Assembly (NCBI GenBank): GCA_024226555.1 | Contig: JAAELO010000363.1 | Span: 1 to 33,658 of the forward strand | Length of the DNA stretch: 33,658 nucleotides | Direction: 5' to 3' | Origin: Desulfobacterales bacterium | GTDB taxonomy: Bacteria; Desulfobacterota; Desulfobacteria; Desulfobacterales; JAAELO01 | Part shown: positions 9,984 to 33,349 of the stretch, one piece after another | Numbering within the stretch: the first letter of the stretch is position 1 | How the letters are laid out: each line of letters begins with the position of its first letter | Notes under the pieces: model-generated | The model's database searches: none | The model's input: the letters and a program-made list of their open reading frames with translations, nothing else | Told to the model about the DNA's origin: nothing | Made by a program: the position numbers and the translations under genes

Positions 9984-10112
9984 GGGAACCTCTAATAATC
10001 GTCTTTTAACTGAACTACTGCGTTATTACGAAAAAAAATTGTTGTAAAACCGGTTCGTTATTTTTTCTTAAACCTTGTATTTCAATCAAAATTCTTTTTA
10101 TTAGAGGCTCCC
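9984..10112 (+). repeat. 129-bp inverted-repeat element, intact copy 1
   Basis: Intact member of the family described in the findings. The left end GGGAACCTCTAATAAT is answered by the right end TTTTTATTAGAGGCTCCC. The interior holds the family landmarks CGTTATTACGAAAA, CCGGTTCGTTATTTTTTC and CCTTGTATTTCAATCAAAAT. It fills most of the 300-bp gap between scpB and lysS. Read in the direction of scpB transcription, it begins 5 bases after the scpB stop, so an scpB transcript would enter it at once. It contains no ORF of note and has no obvious target-site duplication. Confidence 0.85.
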
Positions 10113-11448: not shown

Positions 11449-12471
11449 TTAACCAATAGCCTGAATTCCAACAGCTGTCCGAACTTTTGAAAGAAAAGGA
11501 ACACTGTAATTTCTGGCTCTTTCAGCGCCCTTCTTAAGAACCTCTTCGATATACCCCTTATCATTCATCAATTTTTCATATTCAATTCTTGATTCTTTCA
11601 GGTGATCGTTCAGGTATTCAAACAAAAACTGTTTCATCTCACCCCAGGCTATACCATCTTCATATCTCTTAGTAAGATCTTTAACATCGCTCTCTTCTGC
11701 AAATGCTTTATAAATAGCAAATAGCGTACAGTCTGAAGGGTCTTTAGGGACACCAGGTTCAAGAGAGTTTGTTTTTATCTTCATAATAAGTTTTCTAAAT
11801 CTTTTTTCAGGCTCAAAAAGAGGAATTGTATTACCATAACTCTTACTCATTTTCCTTCCATCAAGACCTTTTAGAACAGCAGTTGATTCTTCAACAACAG
11901 CTTCCGGCAATGTGAAAAGTTTTTTGTAAGTATGGTTGAAGGAACCTGCAATATCTCTTGCCATCTCAAGGTGCTGCGTCTGGTCTTTACCAACCGGTAC
12001 TTTGTGTGCATTAAACATTAAAATATCAGCAGCCATAAGAACCGGGTAGCTAAAAAGCCCCATGTTTATGCCCTTGTCGTTATCTTTATCATCATCAGAA
12101 CTGCCTTTATCCACATTTTCCTGAACAGCTGCTTTATATGCATGGGCTCTGTTAAGAAGTCCTTTTCCAGCCATACATGTTAGAATCCATGTTAGTTCTG
12201 GTATTTCAGGAATATCTGACTGCCTGTAAAATGTTGAGTTTTCAACATCAAGTCCAAGAGCGAGCCATGTGGCTGCAAGCTCTAAACTGGATTGTTTTAC
12301 AATTTTCGGATCATGGCACTTAACAAGTGCATGATAGTCTGCAAGAAAGTAATATGATATTTTTGATTCATCCTTACTTGCTTCAACAGAAGGCCTTATC
12401 GCTCCCACATAGTTTCCAAGGTGCGGGGTCCCTGTTGTTGTTATTCCTGTTAGAAAGATCTCTTTTCCCAT
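11449..12471 (-). CDS. trpS: Tryptophanyl-tRNA synthetase
   Basis: Class I synthetase charging tRNA-Trp. From the chosen start MGKEIFLTGITTTG the protein is 340 residues, with the HIGH-equivalent TPHLGNYVG (~15-23), a GKDQTQHLEMARDIA block and KMSKS at 207-211. A TTG 11 codons upstream keeps the frame open and would overlap the M50 gene. I prefer the ATG at 12471 because AAAAGGA lies at the right distance before it and homologues begin just ahead of the HIGH motif. The gene is packed between the M50 protease (start 22 bp after its stop) and scpA. Confidence 0.96.
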   Translation of the reverse strand: MGKEIFLTGITTTGTPHLGNYVGAIRPSVEASKDESKISYYFLADYHALVKCHDPKIVKQSSLELAATWLALGLDVENSTFYRQSDIPEIPELTWILTCMAGKGLLNRAHAYKAAVQENVDKGSSDDDKDNDKGINMGLFSYPVLMAADILMFNAHKVPVGKDQTQHLEMARDIAGSFNHTYKKLFTLPEAVVEESTAVLKGLDGRKMSKSYGNTIPLFEPEKRFRKLIMKIKTNSLEPGVPKDPSDCTLFAIYKAFAEESDVKDLTKRYEDGIAWGEMKQFLFEYLNDHLKESRIEYEKLMNDKGYIEEVLKKGAERARNYSVPFLSKVRTAVGIQAIG

Positions 12472-16224: not shown

Positions 16225-17892
16225 ATGATTATTGGATTAGACGTAGGTGGTACCCATACTGATGTTGTTCTGTTAGAAAAAAGTGGGCCTGTTAAAAATG
16301 TTAAAGTTCCCACAGACACTTCTGATCTGTTCAGTACTGTCCTTAAAGGATTTGAAAAGATAACTGAAGGCATTGATCCAAAGAAAATTAAAAGAGCTGT
16401 TCTAAGTACCACACTTACAACGAATGCCATTGTTCAAAGTACAGTTCAAACTGTTGGAATGATTGTTATTGGTGGACCTGGTATTGATCCTGAACTATTT
16501 AAAACCAATGACCATTACTATTCTGTTAAAGGTTATATAGATCATAGAGGTCGTGAGGCCGAATCTATTGACGAAACACAGATTAAAGAGATCTCCCGAA
16601 AACTAAAGAAAGATGGTATTTTACATGTTGGAGTTGTGGGCAAATTCTCAGCGCGAAATCCCTCCCAGGAAAACAGAGTTTATGAAATTTTAAATAATAA
16701 TTTTGAAAAAATATTTCTGGGGCATCAGATATCCGGTAATCTGAATTTCCCAAGACGAATAGCGACAACTTACCTTAATGCAGCGGTGTATCCAATTCAC
16801 AAAGATTTTTTTGAAGCTGTACGAAGTTCCCTCAAAACTAAAGGGTTAAATGTTCCAATCCATATATTAAAAGCAGATGGAGGTACTATGAGTTTTGAGT
16901 CCTCCATTGATTACCCTGCTCAAACCATCTTTTCAGGTCCGGCGGCAAGTGTTATGGGAGCAATTGCCACAGCTCCGGACAGTGATGTTATAGTGCTTGA
17001 TATTGGTGGGACCACAACTGATATTGCAATGCTTATAGATGGGGCACCTGTTTTAGAGCCACTTGGAATAGCTCTTGGTGGATATAAGACCTTGATAAGG
17101 TCGCTTAAGACAAAATCGATAGGTATTGGCGGGGATAGTCATGTTAGAGTTGAAAAGGGTGAAATAAAGATAGGCCCTGAAAGACTTGGCCGTGCTATGG
17201 CTTATGGAGGACCAGTTCCAACAACAACCGATGCAATTTTTGTCCTTAATGAAGATAACTCCAATGAATTTGAAAAAGCAAAAATTGCTGTGGAGAGTAT
17301 AGCAAAAGAGTTGAAAATTTCTCCAATTGATGCTGCACAAAAAATATTTGATAAAGCATGTGATGTTATTTTAGAAGAGGTTGAAAAAACTGTGAGACAG
17401 ATAAATAGTCAACCTGTTTACACAATCCATGAGCTTTTAGATGGTTATAAAGTTAAACCTACAACAATAATGGTTTTAGGAGGCCCTGCAAAGGAGTTCG
17501 CAATACATCTTGAGAAGATGTCTAATTATTCAGTTGGAATTGTTCATGAATGGAAAGTTGCAAATGCAATTGGAGCCGGCCTTGCAAGAACAACATGCGA
17601 GGTTATGCTCTTTGCCGATACACAACATAATATAATAGCTGCACCGGAAGAGAATTTTAGCGAACCTGTTGGAAGCCACTATACAAAAAATGATGCTATA
17701 ATGCAGGCAACAGACCTGCTGAAAGAAAAAGCTCTGAAAAATGGTTCAAGTTCAGAAGACTTTGAGGTGGAGATAATCGAAGATCTTGAGTTCAATATGG
17801 TTAGGGGATTTAGTACTGTTGGAAAGAATATTCGTGTAAAGGTACAGGTGAAACCAGGCCTTATACATGGATATGACCCGATTGGTGCATAA
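16225..17892 (+). CDS. Hydantoinase/oxoprolinase-family protein (HyuA-type, no HyuB)
   Basis: ATP-dependent cyclic-amide hydrolase family, which includes N-methylhydantoinase A, 5-oxoprolinase and acetone carboxylase subunits. The 555-residue protein begins with the ASKHA-type phosphate loop IGLDVGGTHTDVVLLE (residues 3-18) and has STTLTTNAIVQ (~70). The second nucleotide motif VLDIGGTTTDIAML lies at ~257-270 after FSGPAASVMGA, followed by SIGIGGDSHVRVEKGEIKIG. It covers the Hydant_A_N and Hydantoinase_A domains but is shorter than typical HyuA (about 650-700), lacking most of the C-terminal domain. No HyuB-like subunit follows. The ribosome site is TTGGAGTAAGC before the ATG. The deacetylase-fold gene follows 60 bp downstream in the same direction, so a two-gene operon is likely. 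The substrate cannot be read from the sequence. Confidence 0.85.
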   Translation: MIIGLDVGGTHTDVVLLEKSGPVKNVKVPTDTSDLFSTVLKGFEKITEGIDPKKIKRAVLSTTLTTNAIVQSTVQTVGMIVIGGPGIDPELFKTNDHYYSVKGYIDHRGREAESIDETQIKEISRKLKKDGILHVGVVGKFSARNPSQENRVYEILNNNFEKIFLGHQISGNLNFPRRIATTYLNAAVYPIHKDFFEAVRSSLKTKGLNVPIHILKADGGTMSFESSIDYPAQTIFSGPAASVMGAIATAPDSDVIVLDIGGTTTDIAMLIDGAPVLEPLGIALGGYKTLIRSLKTKSIGIGGDSHVRVEKGEIKIGPERLGRAMAYGGPVPTTTDAIFVLNEDNSNEFEKAKIAVESIAKELKISPIDAAQKIFDKACDVILEEVEKTVRQINSQPVYTIHELLDGYKVKPTTIMVLGGPAKEFAIHLEKMSNYSVGIVHEWKVANAIGAGLARTTCEVMLFADTQHNIIAAPEENFSEPVGSHYTKNDAIMQATDLLKEKALKNGSSSEDFEVEIIEDLEFNMVRGFSTVGKNIRVKVQVKPGLIHGYDPIGA

Positions 17893-17952
17893 TTATAGAG
17901 TATTTGTTGTACGAAAAGGTTTAAAATTTGATATTTTGGAGATGATCTTTTT

Positions 17953-19263
17953 ATGTTACGAGCAAAAAATAAAACCGGATTGGTTTTCTTCCCGGCATTT
18001 GACTGGGCTATAGACCCAACACACCCTGAAAGAGAAGAACGACTTTTATATACACAGGATCAGGTCTTTGAAGAGGGACTTTTTGATATTGATGGAATTA
18101 CAGAGTATAAACCGGATCTCGTAACTGAAAAAGATGTCCAAAGAGTACATATGTGTGTCCCCGATGTTAAGAGAGTTACAACAAATTCTCATTTTATTAG
18201 TGCCGGTGGTGCAAAAACTATTGGTAGAGCTGTAATGGAAAAAGAGATCGATTGTGGTTTTGCGCTTGTCAGACCTCCGGGGCACCATGCCATGCGTGTT
18301 GTTCATGGGGGCAGAGGTTTTTGTAATATAAATATTGAAGCCATAATGGTCGAATTCCTTAGGAAAGAGTATGGTATAAAGAAAGTCGCCATTATTGATA
18401 CTGATTGTCATCACGGTGATGGAACTCAGGATATTTACTGGCATGATCCAAATACACTTTTTGTATCTGTTCATCAGGATGGAAGAACTCTATATCCTGG
18501 TTCAGGATTTCTCAATGAGTTTGGTGGACCAAATGCAGCAGGAACAACACTGAATATTCCACTTCCGCCAAACACTTCAGATGAAGGTTACCTGTATACT
18601 GTTGAAAATGCGATTTTACCAATTCTTGATGAATTTAAACCGGATATAATAATAAATTCAGCCGGTCAGGATAATCATTTTTCCGATCCGTTAACAAATA
18701 TGAATTTTTCTGCAAAGGGTTATGCTGATTTAACATCTCTTTTAAAGCCTGATATTGCAGTTCTTGAAGGAGGGTATTCCATTGAAGGAGCCTTGCCATA
18801 TGTGAATATGGGAATTATTTTAGCAATGGCAGGTCTTGACTACAGCAATATAAAAGAACCCAATTATGACCCATCAAGACTTTCCCAATCATCATCTGTT
18901 TCAGGAAGTATAAAGGATATTTGCAAAGATGTTCTGAATGTCTGGAACAATAGAGATGCTCTAAGGGATAAAATCAGGGGTGATGGTAAGTTCCATGAAA
19001 GAGCCCGTAACATAATGTACGATACCGATAATATTTATGAGATGCAGAAAGAGAAAATAATGATTTGCGATGATTGTGCAGGTTCCATTAGAATAGAATC
19101 CTCTTCTGACACAGGCCATAACCTGTTTGGAGTTCATATACCGGTTGATGCCTGTAATAAATGCAAAGAGGTTGGTTATGAATGGTTTGAGACTGGCAAG
19201 TCTGGTAGTTTCAAAAATACCCTTTTACAGGATAGAAGTGAAGACAACTATTTAACATCATAG
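17953..19263 (+). CDS. Histone-deacetylase-fold amidohydrolase with C-terminal zinc ribbon
   Basis: Zn-dependent deacylase of the arginase/deacetylase superfamily, in the group of AcuC and acetylpolyamine amidohydrolases. Key residues are present: PGHHA (His111-His112), IDTDCHHGDG with metal ligands Asp151 and His153 and the charge-relay Asp149, third ligand Asp240 in SAGQD, and the transition-state Tyr275 in LEGGYS. The enzyme should therefore be active. After the ~310-residue catalytic domain comes a tail with CxxC pairs at 372/375 and 401/404, which should bind a structural zinc. GGAGA lies 12 bases before the ATG. It follows the hydantoinase-type gene, and the pair ends at a hairpin terminator. 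Deacylation of an N-acyl small molecule is more likely than of a histone, but the substrate is unknown. Confidence 0.88.
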   Translation: MLRAKNKTGLVFFPAFDWAIDPTHPEREERLLYTQDQVFEEGLFDIDGITEYKPDLVTEKDVQRVHMCVPDVKRVTTNSHFISAGGAKTIGRAVMEKEIDCGFALVRPPGHHAMRVVHGGRGFCNINIEAIMVEFLRKEYGIKKVAIIDTDCHHGDGTQDIYWHDPNTLFVSVHQDGRTLYPGSGFLNEFGGPNAAGTTLNIPLPPNTSDEGYLYTVENAILPILDEFKPDIIINSAGQDNHFSDPLTNMNFSAKGYADLTSLLKPDIAVLEGGYSIEGALPYVNMGIILAMAGLDYSNIKEPNYDPSRLSQSSSVSGSIKDICKDVLNVWNNRDALRDKIRGDGKFHERARNIMYDTDNIYEMQKEKIMICDDCAGSIRIESSSDTGHNLFGVHIPVDACNKCKEVGYEWFETGKSGSFKNTLLQDRSEDNYLTS

Positions 19264-19859: not shown

Positions 19860-21959
19860 CTAATCCTGTTTTGCTCTTAATCTCTGTACTATATACAATG
19901 TTAAGTAAAGACCAAGACCGATTAAATAAGTCCAGTATCTTTGATCATGTGGCATCCCCAACCATTTTGCAATTTGGTCTGGTCTCATTAGAATAAACGT
20001 TACACAAAGGAAAAATGGAATTTCATAAAATTTATTTTTTGTAATAAACCAACCCTGGGTAGCAGAAGCAAAGGCAAAGTTACCAAGACAGGCCATAACA
20101 AATATTAGAATTCCCTGGGACCAGCTGAAAACATTATGTAAAATAAGGTCGCTGTTGAATATAAACATAAACGGTAGTATCGCCGTTCTGATATCATACA
20201 TAAATCCCTGTAAACCTGTAGGTATTGGTGGAGATTTTGCAATTGCAGCAGCAGCATAGGCTGCCAATCCCACAGGAGGTGTGTCATCTGCAAGAATTCC
20301 AAAGTAAAAGCAAAATAAGTGAGCTGACATAAGAGGTACTATGAAGTTAAGGTTAGCACCAATAATGACAATTGCCGGAGCAGTAAGAGAAGCCATAACT
20401 ATATAGGTGGCTGTTGTTGGAAGGCCCATGCCAATCAAAAGACTTGCACCAGCTGTTATTATGAGCATAAGATAAATATTACCCATGGATATCGTGTCTA
20501 TTATCTGTGTAATTAATCCACCAAGCCCCATTGCCACAACTCCAACGATTATACCAGCAGCAGCTGTAGCAAGTGCCACTGAAACCATATTTCGACCACC
20601 AGTTGCCAGGGCTTCAAAAATTGAGCTCACGCCCTTTTTGAAAGCAGGCTTTATAGGTTTTTTATCTAAATATGCTTTTATTGGGTCCTGAACCAGCATT
20701 ACTATTGCTAATACCCAGATTGCATTGAAAGCTGCCAGTTCCGGTGAGTGTCTTTTTACAATTAATTCATAAAGAAGTAATAGAAGCGGTAATAAGTAGT
20801 GTATTCCACCAATAAATGTTTTGAAAAATGGAGGAAGTTCCTTTCTTGGTATGCCTTTTAATCCTAGTTTGCTTGCTTCTATATGTGTGATATAAAATAG
20901 TGCTGCATATGAAGCAAAGGCCGGAATTGCTGCAGCTTTCACAACATCTATATATGGAACATTTACATACTCAGCTATGATAAATGCAGCCGCCCCCATA
21001 ATAGGTGGAGCTAATTGCCCATCAGTACTTGCGGCAACTTCAATAGCGGCCGCTTTTGTAGCCGGATATCCCACTTTTTTCATCATTGGGATTGTGAAAG
21101 TTCCTGTGGTAACGATGTTTGCGATACTTGAACCTGAAACAAGTCCGGTAAAGCCACTTCCCATTACAGCAGCTTTTGCAGGGCCACCTTTAAAACCACC
21201 AAGTAAACTAAGTGCCATCTGGATAAAGTAGTGTCCACCTCCTGCTTTATCCAGCATTGCGCCAAAAAGAACATAGAGAAAAACTATTTTAGCAGAAACA
21301 TCCAAAGGGACACCGTAAATACCCTCTGTTGAAATAGTCATTTGGCCTATGAATCTGTTAAGGGAGATCCCCTTAAATGCGATTAAATCTGGCATATATG
21401 GACCAAGGAAAGAGTATACACAAAACATTATAGCTATAATAGGAAGAGCAGGTCCAATAACCCTTCGTGAAGCCTCTAATAACATGACTACAAGAATTAT
21501 TCCAATGACAATATCACGGGTAAGAGGGCTACCGCTTCTGAGTGAAATACCTGTATAATCGATTGCAAGGTATAGTGCAGATAAACATGCGACAATTGCA
21601 ATCAAATAATCAATTACAGGAATTTTGTCTTTTGCAGAGAGAAACTTAAAACCTCGGATTGGCTTATGTAACATTGGATAGTTCAGAAAAACAATTAACA
21701 TTGCAAAACCAAGGTGAATTGACCTTGTGTATGTTGAATCCAAAGCACCAAAATTAAATGAAATTTGAAACAGATCAAAAACATTAATGTTGATGGAATA
21801 AGTTTTTACAATTGCGAGTTGAAAAATACTCCAAATTGCTGCGATGGTTGGGATAATGTATTTTGAAAAACCTTTAGGTCTTCTTCCAATTCCGGATTCC
21901 TCATCAGCCATTTTTTGGGCAAGTTCTAAACCTTCATCCTTATCTTTTTCGATATCCAT
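19860..21959 (-). CDS. TRAP transporter permease, fused 4TM/12TM (DctQM) type
   Basis: Secondary transporter taking up organic acids or related solutes with a Na+ or H+ gradient. The 699-residue protein is hydrophobic throughout. A cytoplasmic N-terminus (~35 residues, acidic) leads into the DctQ-like segment (~35-165). The DctM part follows, with the conserved GSGFTGLVSGSSIANIVTTG (~260-280), AASTDGQLAPPIMGAAAFII, GMGLPTTATYIVMASLTAPA and ADDTPPVGLAAYAAAAIAKS. Fused DctQM permeases are usually paired with a TAXI-type solute-binding protein; none is encoded here, so the binding protein must lie elsewhere or be lost. UspA follows. The 5' region contains a cluster of inverted-repeat elements, the nearest ending about 150 bp from the start codon. 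Confidence 0.93.
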   Translation of the reverse strand: MDIEKDKDEGLELAQKMADEESGIGRRPKGFSKYIIPTIAAIWSIFQLAIVKTYSININVFDLFQISFNFGALDSTYTRSIHLGFAMLIVFLNYPMLHKPIRGFKFLSAKDKIPVIDYLIAIVACLSALYLAIDYTGISLRSGSPLTRDIVIGIILVVMLLEASRRVIGPALPIIAIMFCVYSFLGPYMPDLIAFKGISLNRFIGQMTISTEGIYGVPLDVSAKIVFLYVLFGAMLDKAGGGHYFIQMALSLLGGFKGGPAKAAVMGSGFTGLVSGSSIANIVTTGTFTIPMMKKVGYPATKAAAIEVAASTDGQLAPPIMGAAAFIIAEYVNVPYIDVVKAAAIPAFASYAALFYITHIEASKLGLKGIPRKELPPFFKTFIGGIHYLLPLLLLLYELIVKRHSPELAAFNAIWVLAIVMLVQDPIKAYLDKKPIKPAFKKGVSSIFEALATGGRNMVSVALATAAAGIIVGVVAMGLGGLITQIIDTISMGNIYLMLIITAGASLLIGMGLPTTATYIVMASLTAPAIVIIGANLNFIVPLMSAHLFCFYFGILADDTPPVGLAAYAAAAIAKSPPIPTGLQGFMYDIRTAILPFMFIFNSDLILHNVFSWSQGILIFVMACLGNFAFASATQGWFITKNKFYEIPFFLCVTFILMRPDQIAKWLGMPHDQRYWTYLIGLGLYLTLYIVQRLRAKQD

Positions 21960-22180: not shown

Positions 22181-22309
22181 GGGAATCTCTAATAACTGCC
22201 TTTTGATCGAACTAAAGCGTTGTTCGTAAAATATAACTGTTTTAAAATCAGCTCGTTACATTTTTCTCACCTTGTATTTCAAACAAAATTCCAGATATTA
22301 GAGGTTCCC
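22181..22309 (+). repeat. 129-bp inverted-repeat element, intact copy 2
   Basis: Left end GGGAATCTCTAATAACTG, right end AGATATTAGAGGTTCCC, with the interior landmarks AGCGTTGTTCGTAAA, CAGCTCGTTACATTTTTCTC and CCTTGTATTTCAAACAAAAT. It is exactly as long as copies 1 and 5. It lies between the divergent TRAP and rep genes, not directly behind a stop codon. Confidence 0.85.
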
Positions 22310-22313
22310 CTAA

Positions 22314-22337
22314 AAACAAAAGGCTTTAGTTTTGTTT
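22314..22337. repeat. Type-A nested hairpin
   Basis: Perfect 8-bp arms AAACAAAA / TTTTGTTT around the loop GGCTTTAG (reverse complement CTAAAGCC). The same module occurs inverted at 23787-23811. Confidence 0.7.
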
Positions 22338-22378
22338 GTTTTGATCAATCTACATCTTTATTTTTCCCATGCAGAAAT

Positions 22379-22404
22379 TTTATAAAACTTAAAGCTTTTA
22401 TAAT
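22379..22404. repeat. Type-B nested hairpin
   Basis: Arms TTTATAAAA / TTTTATAAT (8 of 9 pairs) around CTTAAAGC, inserted after CATGC in the truncated element at 22310-22442. Confidence 0.65.
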
Positions 22405-22450
22405 CTGAATTTCAATCAAAATTCTAATTATTAGAGATTCCCTATATATA

Positions 22451-22584: not shown

Positions 22585-23598
22585 TTGTTTAAAAATAATT
22601 TGGGAATTCGTAATGAAAACAAAAACTATATCGCAACTATAAAAATGACATTTTCGAATATGTTTGATTCAGCAAAATTATCACAGGTAGAAACAAAGAC
22701 TTTTAAATATAATCACTATAGATTATTACATATTTTCTTTTGGAAATATAAATCTTTAGGTAAAGATCATAGTTCATATCCTTTAAAATTGTCAGATCTG
22801 AAATCCTATCTTGGAGTTAAAGAGAATAAACAGATAGTTGATTTGGTACAGAAACTTTCCAAATCATATATAAAATTCAGCGATAACGAAGACCAGAATT
22901 TAGGTTTTTGTAGTGTTGTCTCCAATGAGGTATACATCGAAAATGATACCCTTTATTTTAATTTGCCAGAGCATTTAAAGGTTCTTATCGATTCAGAAAG
23001 AGTTCAAAGTGAACTCTGCTTCAACGGAACATTAATGTTTAAAAATAAATTTGCAAAGGATCTTTATTTTTTAACTAAAGAAACATCTGAAGATGAAACT
23101 GAATGGATCGATGTTGAAGATTTCAAAGAATTTCTTGCTGTTCCGGACAAAAAAACCTACCAAAATTTTAAAAATGTTGGGAGCAAAATAATCTCCCCAA
23201 GTATCTCTGAAATTAATACCTTATCTGACCTAAATCTTGTAGTTGAATATATCGCTGATGATAATGGTATAAAATCGGTTCGTTTCAAAATCGAGAAAAA
23301 AGATCCCGAAATAATTTCACAACTTGTTACATGGGAAAAGCCTGAAGTTGAAGAAAACTCAGTAAAAAATGATGATGATGAAACAGAGAACGGCGATTCT
23401 CTAATTGAAGCAAAGTTATTTCTGGGTGATGTTGATGATGAATCTCTATCATCTTACAAAAATGGTTTTATCGAGATGATTAAAAATAAGAAAATGGTTT
23501 ACCAGAGATTTCAAAAATATGGCTACAATGATGTTTTGATTAAAAATGTATTTCTTCAGTATATAAGAGATAATGTACTAAGTAAGGCCGCGTCATAA
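22585..23598 (+). CDS. Plasmid-type replication initiator, Rep_3 (RepB/RepE) family
   Basis: DNA-binding initiator of the two-winged-helix Rep_3 type. The N-terminal winged helix is at ~45-105 (YNHYRLLHIFFWKYKS, LKLSDLKSYLGVKENKQ). The second is at ~150-235: LMFKNKFAKDLYFLTKET, WIDVEDFKEFLAVPDKKTY, then the diagnostic IISPSISEINTLSDLNLVVE and VRFKIEKK. An acidic linker (~245-270) leads to a ~60-residue C-terminal helix-rich tail. The frame is open only from 22555. The first usable start is the TTG at 22585 and the first ATG is codon 21 (22645); neither has a clear ribosome site, so the N-terminus is uncertain. No partition, iteron or mobilisation genes adjoin it; lpxC follows 265 bp downstream. 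The family call rests on domain pattern; a chromosomal role, plasmid remnant or regulator all remain possible. Confidence 0.75.
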   Translation: MFKNNLGIRNENKNYIATIKMTFSNMFDSAKLSQVETKTFKYNHYRLLHIFFWKYKSLGKDHSSYPLKLSDLKSYLGVKENKQIVDLVQKLSKSYIKFSDNEDQNLGFCSVVSNEVYIENDTLYFNLPEHLKVLIDSERVQSELCFNGTLMFKNKFAKDLYFLTKETSEDETEWIDVEDFKEFLAVPDKKTYQNFKNVGSKIISPSISEINTLSDLNLVVEYIADDNGIKSVRFKIEKKDPEIISQLVTWEKPEVEENSVKNDDDETENGDSLIEAKLFLGDVDDESLSSYKNGFIEMIKNKKMVYQRFQKYGYNDVLIKNVFLQYIRDNVLSKAAS

Positions 23599-23683
23599 AT
23601 ACCCAATCCTGATGGCTAACAATTAAAAAAGCAGTTACTGACAAATAGATTAATTTGTTATATAATCATTCATTTTAAATAAA

Positions 23684-23834
23684 GGGAATCTCTAATAATT
23701 AGAATTTTGATTGAAATACAAGGCATTAGAAAAAATAATGGGCTGACTTTATTACAGTTCTTTTTTCGTAACGCAGTAGTTCGGTCAAAACAAACTAAAG
23801 CCTTTTGTTTTATAGGCAGTTATTATAGATTCCC
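23684..23834 (-). repeat. 151-bp inverted-repeat element, inverted copy with type-A hairpin
   Basis: On the plus strand it reads GGGAATCTCTAATAATTAGA, then TTTTGATTGAAATACAAGGC, and ends GTTATTATAGATTCCC, so the family's right half comes first. The extra ~22 bases over 129 are accounted for by the hairpin at 23787-23811, near the family's left end. It fills the gap between the rep gene and lpxC and ends 29 bases before the lpxC ATG, so it probably lies in the lpxC leader. Confidence 0.85.
23787..23811. repeat. Type-A nested hairpin, inverted copy
   Basis: Arms AAAACAAA / TTTGTTTT around CTAAAGCCT. It sits at the same element position as the copy at 22314-22337, when both are read in the element's own orientation. 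Confidence 0.7.
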
Positions 23835-23863: not shown

Positions 23864-24736
23864 ATGAACAATTATATATGCCAGAAAACGATTGAAAAAG
23901 CGGTGTCCTGTTCAGGAACAGGAGCCCACTCTGGAAAAAAGGTCAATCTTACATTAAAACCAGCCCCGGTTAATAATGGTATAAAGTTTGTTCGCACAGA
24001 CCTGCCCAATTCCCCTGAGGTTAAGGGACTTTTTAATAAAGTTGTTGATACAAGTATGGCAACAGTAATAGGTCATGATGGGGTTATAGTCTCAACTATT
24101 GAACATCTGATGGCAAGTTTTGCTGGTTTTGGTATCGATAATGTAATTGTTGAACTTGATAACTATGAACTTCCAATTCTTGATGGAAGTGCTGAACTCT
24201 ACGCTTCAATTCTTGAAGAAGCCGGTATAAAAGATCTTGAAACACCACGATGCTTTTTCGTTGTGAATGAAAAAATTGAACTGTGTGAAGGTGAAAAAAA
24301 AGTTACAGTTTATCCTTCAGATGTTTATAAATTAACATGCATGATAGATTTCTCACATCCAATGATTGGAAGACAGGAGATCGATGTTGAAATTACCAGT
24401 GAAAATTTCAGAAAAGAGATTGCAAGTGCCAGAACTTTTGGTTTTTTCCAGGACCTCGAATACCTGAAAATGTATGGTCTGGCAAGGGGTGTAACATTAG
24501 ACAGCGGGATAGCTTTTGATAATGAGGGTGGCATTTTAAATGAGAGTGGTTTAAGGTTTGAAAATGAGTGCGTACGGCACAAACTGCTTGATTGTCTTGG
24601 TGATTTCTCCCTGATTGGTATGCCAATTTTAGGACATATTGTAACAGAAAAATCCGGGCATGATTTCAATTACCAGTTTATCAAGAAGTTCTTTAATCAA
24701 AGAAAGGCCTGGGGTACTTGTGAAGTAAAAATATAA
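23864..24736 (+). CDS. lpxC: UDP-3-O-acyl-N-acetylglucosamine deacetylase LpxC
   Basis: Zn-dependent amidase for the committed step of lipid A synthesis. The 290-residue protein has TIEHLMAS (Glu80 as base, ligand His81), the second and third ligands in VRHKLLDCLGD (His239, Asp243) and the acidic-loop histidine His266 in SGHDFNY. GTGAHSGKKV near the start and SARTFGFFQDLEYLKMYGLA complete the family pattern. The length fits the shorter LpxC form without the C-terminal extension that E. coli LpxC uses for FtsH degradation, so control by that route is doubtful. It is separated from lpxA and fabZ by 20 kb. Repeat elements sit 29 bp before its ATG and directly after its stop codon. The ribosome site is weak (AAAG, about 12 bases upstream). 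Confidence 0.97.
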   Translation: MNNYICQKTIEKAVSCSGTGAHSGKKVNLTLKPAPVNNGIKFVRTDLPNSPEVKGLFNKVVDTSMATVIGHDGVIVSTIEHLMASFAGFGIDNVIVELDNYELPILDGSAELYASILEEAGIKDLETPRCFFVVNEKIELCEGEKKVTVYPSDVYKLTCMIDFSHPMIGRQEIDVEITSENFRKEIASARTFGFFQDLEYLKMYGLARGVTLDSGIAFDNEGGILNESGLRFENECVRHKLLDCLGDFSLIGMPILGHIVTEKSGHDFNYQFIKKFFNQRKAWGTCEVKI

Positions 24737-32179: not shown

Positions 32180-32308
32180 GGGAACCTCTAATAACTGATC
32201 TTTTTGCGAAATACTGCTTTTTCAAAAAAAACAACTGTAGTAAAATCAACCCGTTGTTTTTTTCTCAGCCTTGTATTTCATCGAAAATTCTAATTATTAG
32301 AGATTCCC
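32180..32308 (+). repeat. 129-bp inverted-repeat element, intact copy 5
   Basis: Left end GGGAACCTCTAATAACTG, right end TAATTATTAGAGATTCCC, with landmarks AACCCGTTGTTTTTTTCTCA and CCTTGTATTTCATC. It starts 1 base after the DUF368 stop codon. It is the same length as copies 1 and 2, although interior bases have diverged. Confidence 0.85.
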
Positions 32309-33189: not shown

Positions 33190-33349
33190 TGGAACCTCTA
33201 ATAATTGCTCTTTTTCCGAAATACTTCGTTATATCCAAAAAAAAACTGTTGTAATGTTTATAAATTAAAACGTTTTATAAACGAACCGGCTCGTTATTTT
33301 TTGTCATGCCTTGTATTTCATTAAAAATTTCGAATTATTAGAGGTTCCA
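33190..33349 (+). repeat. 160-bp inverted-repeat element with type-B hairpin
   Basis: Left end TGGAACCTCTAATAAT, right end ATTATTAGAGGTTCCA: the terminal G/C is changed to T/A on both sides, so the arms still pair. Landmarks: GAAATACTTCGTTATA, CCGGCTCGTTATTTTTTG, CCTTGTATTTCATT. The extra ~30 bases are the hairpin at 33256-33282. It begins 70 bases after the TerB-like gene. Confidence 0.85.
33256..33282. repeat. Type-B nested hairpin (site I)
   Basis: Perfect 9-bp arms GTTTATAAA / TTTATAAAC around TTAAAACGT, inserted between CTGTTGTAA and GAACCGGCTCGTT. Copy 1 (9984) shows the empty site as TTGTTGTAAAACCGGTTCGTT. Confidence 0.75.

Follow-up and report, generated by a model that had tools for sequence, protein, structure and literature searches.

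A divergent Rep_3 initiator gene without iterons beside lpxC in a Desulfobacterales genome, a possible plasmid remnant

What is a plasmid-type replication initiator gene doing among housekeeping genes, and does it still serve replication? In the 33,658-nucleotide stretch of Desulfobacterales DNA analyzed here (the window), an open reading frame resembling a Rep_3 initiator lies between a TRAP permease gene and lpxC. The original prediction offered three readings of this gene: a relic of an integrated plasmid, a domesticated regulator, or an auxiliary chromosomal initiator. We confirm the observation and find partial support for its interpretation. With a probability of about 0.57, we favor a plasmid-derived orphan Rep_3 gene that was stranded in the chromosome by rearrangement and has lost its replicon function. 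The features of the locus are listed below.

19860 to 21959, minus strand: TRAP (DctM) permease, the other flank of the rep gene, identified by family match
22181 to 22442, no strand assigned: two MITE-like copies 5' of the rep gene (22181 to 22309, 23% diverged from the consensus; 22310 to 22442, partial), which are not iterons
22585 to 23598, plus strand: Rep_3 gene, longest open reading frame, TTG to TAA; 337 aa from the TTG, 317 aa from the likelier ATG at 22645
22675 to 23073, plus strand: WH1 (Rep3_N), residues 31 to 163 of the 337-aa reading, weak yet over the cut-off
23113 to 23292, plus strand: WH2 (Rep3_C), residues 177 to 236, the DNA-binding and better-kept half, placed identically by Pfam and by the genome search
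23317 to 23595, plus strand: acidic linker and helical tail, coding-like in composition
23638 to 23666, plus strand: promoter-like site between rep and lpxC, matching 11 of 12 consensus bases
23684 to 23834, no strand assigned: MITE-like copy 3' of the rep gene, in the lpxC spacer, member of a genome-wide family
23864 to 24736, plus strand: lpxC, identified by family match, the start of a conserved lpxC-DUF4390-ntrY block whose usual upstream neighbor, yifB, lies elsewhere in this genome

The window protein is a divergent member of the Rep_3 family. Both of its predicted winged-helix halves were recovered over their Pfam cut-offs, in the order WH1 then WH2 that is typical of the family: PF01051 (Rep3_N) scored 28.5 bits against a cut-off of 22.4, and PF21205 (Rep3_C) scored 42.6 bits against 21.1. 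A PHROG annotated as "replication initiation protein" also matched (E = 1e-8), and the sole NCBIfam match, RepM, was sub-threshold. The family assignment stands, with a weak WH1: eight compared Rep_3 proteins in which this domain was detected scored 44.5 to 95.5 bits. WH1 was not detected by Pfam in a ninth compared protein (L049), and another protein in the same comparison (L048) is truncated at its N terminus. In the whole-genome family search, the window gene was missed with PF01051 and caught with PF21205, and the genome-wide look with PF01051 is therefore lossy.

The span given in the original prediction begins at TTG 22585, which is merely the most upstream start. Residue 31 is where the family match sets in, and the true start is more likely ATG 22645 or ATG 22660. 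A Shine-Dalgarno-like motif was absent at all three candidate starts, as it was at 11 of the 25 other window genes tested likewise. The acidic linker and tail matched no Pfam family over cut-off, as had been proposed, but they are no special feature, since tails that are not conserved and vary widely in length also occur in the compared relatives (total protein length, 271 to 708 aa). The longest of these is a 708-aa Rep_3 protein with a long repeated tail, encoded beside a secreted-looking 1,681-aa open reading frame (L022, 6660 to 8786, G143:C235); a ParA-like gene was not found by search in the 17 kb fetched at that locus.

The predicted structure points to the same family. A single-sequence search of solved structures with the window protein gave no match. 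Profiles of the protein together with its relatives matched RepE of mini-F and pi of R6K in the WH2 half, and a profile built with the window protein matched RepE at E = 4e-8, in the WH2 half of RepE. An AlphaFold model from a four-sequence alignment had a mean pLDDT of 58.8, which is low confidence, with values of 73 to 86 in blocks over WH2. The top Foldseek matches to this model were RepE54 entries (E = 2e-4 to 1e-3), and a second structural comparison placed RepE first (Z = 12.5, rmsd 10.5 over 168 residues, model residues 24 to 220). All of the top 44 rows were RepE or pi entries, with Z scores from 12.5 to 9.2, and the first unrelated row had a Z score of 6.8. The low-confidence model is thus closest to RepE and has a RepE/pi-like fold at an rmsd of about 10 Å, a large value that may come from a wrong angle between the two halves of the model.

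The surroundings of the gene are chromosomal. All 25 of the other window genes scanned belong to ordinary chromosomal families, whose short gene names are partly our reading of the matches: LpxA, FabZ, OmpH, BamA, LolD, LolC, LysRS, ScpB, ScpA, TrpRS, M50 protease, CBS/DHH/poly-A polymerase, hydantoinase, histone deacetylase, Usp, and the TRAP permease; and LpxC, DUF4390, NtrY, NtrX, RsmD, CoaD, LysR, DUF368, and TerB from lpxC rightward. A 26th gene, cut by the window start, appears by eye to be an ABC exporter, and nothing notable was seen past 33119. The 25 scanned genes include no partition, mobilization/relaxase, or integrase gene of the kind expected near a plasmid or integrative element, and the window contains no tRNA and no Rfam match. 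Family matches bear out the predicted placement between a minus-strand DctM/TRAP permease and a plus-strand lpxC. The description of a housekeeping region lacking iterons, par, and mob genes is supported too. The promoter scan that found the site between rep and lpxC returned 14 sites in total, compared to an average of 12.3 in shuffles.

The lpxC locus is widely conserved in relatives, and the rep gene is not part of it. We surveyed 40 genomes including the host's own; 33 others had an lpxC match, and 29 of their loci were fetched with flanks of about 1.5 kb (one flank was just 41 bases). DUF4390 accompanied lpxC in 25 of these 29 relatives and ntrY in 21 (strict threshold), and yifB lay upstream of and divergent to lpxC in 23. 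Within those flanks, neither the rep gene nor the TRAP permease was present at any of the 29 loci. In the host genome, yifB is on a separate contig (C380) among unrelated chromosomal-looking genes, with no pointer to a plasmid around it by eye. Because yifB normally adjoins lpxC, has moved here, and none of these relatives carries rep at this place, the rep locus marks a lineage-specific break. Conservation beside lpxC, which an auxiliary chromosomal initiator should show, was thus seen in none of the 29 relatives. The original prediction was to fall if no Rep_3 profile matched, or if dN/dS was near neutral and the gene missing from all relatives; the profile match stands against such a rejection, and the gene is absent from the 29 lpxC loci examined.

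Relatives of the protein are few and distant. Rep3_C was found in 14 of 389 genomes of the order (24 matches, the host genome being counted in both figures), and a search of the order with the window protein itself found 6 of 389 genomes including the host, the others at 23 to 34% identity. A profile search of a class sample found 12 of 389 genomes, namely the host and 11 others, all of the same order; in a phylum sample, the window protein matched the host alone out of 395. In a plasmid collection, 572 records matched, none over 80% of the window protein. No relative was found in viral contigs or genome contigs, with the protein or pattern A3 as query, nor in phages, the 57 other genomes of the relatives search (all from the host's order, but none from its genus or family), or the 394 other genomes of the phylum sample. 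Distant relatives can escape pattern scans, which rely on conserved peptide stretches; patterns A1 and A4 gave three viral loci. Among 31 Rep_3 proteins placed in a tree, that of the window sits on an end branch of 2.0 (median, 0.76). It falls outside a group of 19 rows that includes the plasmid rep of the host genome (support, 99/98), with no firm place otherwise; the tree tool warns that long rows may be wrongly shut out of groups.

Among the other Rep_3 genes in megabase contigs of the order, two stood out. One, in a contig of 5.0 Mb (L049, 5635 to 6813, G292:C1, after groEL), is Rep_3-like but very diverged, with only WH2 recognizable, and is surrounded by small open reading frames of unknown function. 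The other, in a contig of 5.1 Mb (L048, 6729 to 7355, G357:C1), is truncated at its N terminus and has an integrase nearby; it is probably a remnant of an integrated element. A tie between the window protein and L049 was considered and rejected: the tree joins them (78/78), the join was flagged as two long branches meeting, and L049 was not among the pairwise search matches.

Rep_3 initiators such as RepE and pi bind iterons as monomers and open the origin, and as dimers they bind an operator and repress rep. Iteron plasmids, according to a passage of PMC4980987, have an origin with repeated Rep sites of 17 to 22 bp. Three scans of the window found no such sites: Tandem Repeats Finder gave no array near the rep gene, a search for repeated 18-mers beside it returned just repeat-element pieces at shuffle level, and a period-aware scan of 700 bp on each side found no array over shuffles. 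The period-aware scan covered 22 Rep_3 genes, that of the window and 21 others, omitting contig-edge copies in L020, the L060 copy, a 42-aa fragment in G339, the viral loci, and three extra plasmid loci. Under the rule of at least three copies above shuffles, 14 of the 21 others passed, and two were set aside by eye (L056, an array within a repeat-coding open reading frame; L022, a low-complexity run). Regular 5' arrays thus accompany 12 of the 21 (L008, L020, L023, L050, L051, L053, L054, L055, L057, L058, L059, and L061). One of these, L008, belongs to a contig of the host genome itself, C261, and its array has a period of 36, 4.5 copies, and 97% matches. Since the same scan finds arrays beside other Rep_3 genes, the window truly differs in having no iterons, and blindness of the scan does not account for the result.

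Iteron absence alone is no proof of lost function, because the plasmid-type genes L019 and L052 (both near parA) and both genes of plasmid pPRO1 (L047) also lack arrays. The scan likewise found none at the megabase-contig orphans L021, L048, and L049. For L047, L019, and L021, this call depends on the stricter period-aware rule: the looser 18-mer scan gave repeats, left uncounted here, with 7 copies for L047 (2 in shuffles), 3 for L019 (2 in shuffles), and 7 for L021 (3 in shuffles). The chance that the window gene and the three orphans would all lack arrays was put at 0.029, a figure calculated after sorting and on few loci. DnaA-box-like sites with at most one mismatch number 23 in the window, and the one perfect site, at 12107, is inside trpS. 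No cluster lies near the rep gene, where the single site within 1 kb, at 24322, is mismatched. Because iterons, a DnaA-box cluster, and partition and transfer genes were all not found, the protein would have no origin to start, and its replicon function is probably lost.

Contig C261 provides an internal comparison with a replicon of the same genome, which totals 7.69 Mb in 904 contigs and includes dnaA. It is 33.6 kb long, of which 29.6 kb was read (loci L008 and L024), and it encodes Rep_3, ParA, ParB, an integrase, a coupling protein, an actin-like protein, SSB, and an F-type TraN; judging by this gene content, it is a conjugative plasmid or element. ParA-like genes were found by search in the fetched stretches of L008, L019, L023, L052, L055, and L058.

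Repeat elements mark the DNA around the window gene as chromosomal. The MITE-like family consists of short inverted-repeat elements of about 130 bp with ends GGGAAYCTCTAATAA; copies in the window lie at 9984 to 10112, 22181 to 22309, 22310 to 22442, 23684 to 23834, 32180 to 32308, and 33190 to 33349. Exact ends occur 605 and 612 times in the genome, against 0 for the reversed pattern. Allowing at most two mismatches, 209 ends were counted in 23 stretches outside C261, including the window (461,660 bases). The 29.6 kb of C261 contains 0 ends with at most one mismatch and 1 with at most two. Because these ends abound outside C261 and are nearly absent from it, the rep gene lies in chromosome-marked DNA. 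A composite transposon formed by the two flanking repeat groups was considered and rejected, given the genome-wide abundance of exact ends; in addition, the subtype flanking rep also occurs elsewhere, and end pairs flank ordinary genes in several spots of a 400-kb sample. No transposase was recognized between paired ends in that sample, in which open reading frames of at least 200 aa were listed.

Composition evidence points both ways. At third codon positions, the G+C content of the rep gene (0.252) is that of chromosomal genes (0.254, n = 25), compared to 0.202 for C261 open reading frames (n = 28, mechanical and uncurated). Its codon score exceeds those of 27 of the 28 plasmid frames and 5 of the 25 chromosomal genes, which fits the low end of the chromosome. 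The correct frame is also the best fit to chromosomal codon use among the three forward frames, and both the winged-helix part and the tail have coding-frame base composition. In contrast, overall G+C is plasmid-like (29.9%, against 28.6% [SD, 3.6] for plasmid frames and 34.8% [SD, 2.2] for chromosomal genes), which is what a plasmid origin would leave.

Taken together, these data suggest that a plasmid-borne Rep_3 ancestor was integrated or captured into the chromosome, that the remaining plasmid parts were then lost, and that the rep gene was left at a lineage-specific rearrangement between the TRAP permease and lpxC. In favor are the two Rep_3 domains over cut-off, the diverged WH1, the long branch, the chromosomal neighbors, and the lack of iterons. 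The idea of an integrated plasmid holds as an account of origin, given the family and the lack of the gene at the lpxC loci of relatives; because no further plasmid gene was found in the window, integration itself is a step that we infer. If the protein still acts, it would do so by binding DNA through WH2, the better-kept half, and would at most repress its own gene, not initiate replication. Against a relic, a frame of at least 317 codons has stayed open, the tail is coding-like, and the codons are chromosome-like, and a dead relic should decay. The intact frame had been taken as a sign of continued function; the frame is indeed intact, but the argument is weak because no close relative was found for measuring selection.

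The same evidence bears on the chief alternative, which we hold to be possible at somewhat less than half the weight of the relic: that the host has kept the protein as a two-winged-helix DNA-binding regulator under new constraint, with its own promoter, lpxC, or other sites as targets. This would explain why the frame shows no damage despite a very long branch, why codon choice and third-position G+C are chromosome-like, and why WH2 is better kept than WH1. The left MITE-like copy is 23% diverged from the consensus (mean, 14%; range, 6 to 42%; 41 copies), which hints at an old spacer, and if the rep gene predates this copy, its intact frame would speak for selection. However, repeat age does not date the gene, no relative was found with the gene at the same place, overall G+C is plasmid-like, and no candidate start has a Shine-Dalgarno-like motif. 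A more specific version, somewhat more tentative still, is that the origin-less plasmid initiator now works as such a regulator with WH2 kept and WH1 drifting, on its own promoter and perhaps on other sites, the repeat-rich spacers nearby among them. If a regulatory role were shown, the protein would exemplify the recruitment of a replication initiator as a host factor and would let one examine which half becomes dispensable after origin loss.

We consider it improbable that a plasmid or foreign fragment was falsely joined into the contig at the MITE-like repeats. The draft state of the genome, the repeat copies on both sides of the gene, and its plasmid-like overall G+C would all allow this; however, the flanking copies differ from each other (the best paired arms share 45 nt at 93%), which would make a false join unlikely, and codon choice is closer to the chromosome than to C261. 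Slightly less credible is a still-active initiator, either serving a cryptic element integrated here or working in trans at another origin, in the way that SGI1 uses its rep after excision. Rep genes are known in integrative elements, and that of SGI1 is functional in the account given in a passage of PMC7826253. In the window, however, the 25 scanned genes include neither an integrase nor a relaxase, and no iterons accompany the rep gene; C261, moreover, has its own Rep_3 and iterons, with a motif unmatched in the window at up to three mismatches. Least credible is an auxiliary initiator with a second chromosomal origin at the rep locus, since dnaA is present, neither iterons nor a cluster of DnaA boxes were found, and the strand pattern that might suggest it (most genes left of the locus run left, all examined rightward run right, and skew turns positive across it) largely follows gene orientation, skew turning likewise at 16225 to 19263 and third-position skew being near zero around the gene.

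Plasmid-derived Rep_3 genes outside plasmids are a case of a known kind, because rep genes in integrated elements and the movement of plasmid genes into chromosomes have already been described. A passage of PMC7846284 reports that plasmid genes moved into the chromosomes of Chlamydiae over the long term. SGI1 and other integrative elements resemble the window in having a plasmid-type rep within a chromosome; in a passage of PMC7826253, the SGI1 rep is functional together with an oriV that SGI1 itself carries, and Rep_3-type proteins are also mentioned for integrative elements. An integrase, a transfer origin, and an oriV containing iteron-like repeats are all present in SGI1 but were not found at the window locus. 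Among the literature matches listed, no study treats an orphan chromosomal Rep_3 gene as a regulator, which is no proof that none exists. Rep_3 genes serve as plasmid markers (in a passage of PMC10645730), and used in this way the window gene would cause a plain chromosomal contig to be miscalled.

With RepE of mini-F, the best structural match, and pi of R6K, the window protein has two winged-helix domains in common at about 12% identity; unlike these systems, it has a long tail, and no iterons, partition genes, or plasmid were found with it. Of the best 20 of the 572 plasmid records, the second rep of pPRO1 from Pelobacter propionicus (PPRO_RS18830) had the best E value (3e-8), with 25% identity over residues 48 to 240. 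That gene belongs to a plasmid of 202 kb that also carries parA, parM, and another rep, and its protein keeps an N-terminal motif that is not recognizable in the window protein. The C261 Rep_3 shares family and genome with the window gene but lies beside parA/parB, an integrase, conjugation genes, and a 36-bp iteron array, and it was not among the pairwise search matches listed for the window protein. The orphans of the same order in G114, G357, and G292 are also Rep_3 genes and lie in megabase contigs without a regular iteron array by the period-aware scan, although each is in a different genome and place and that of G357 is truncated and near an integrase. What is unusual in the present case is how bare and how diverged the orphan rep gene is.
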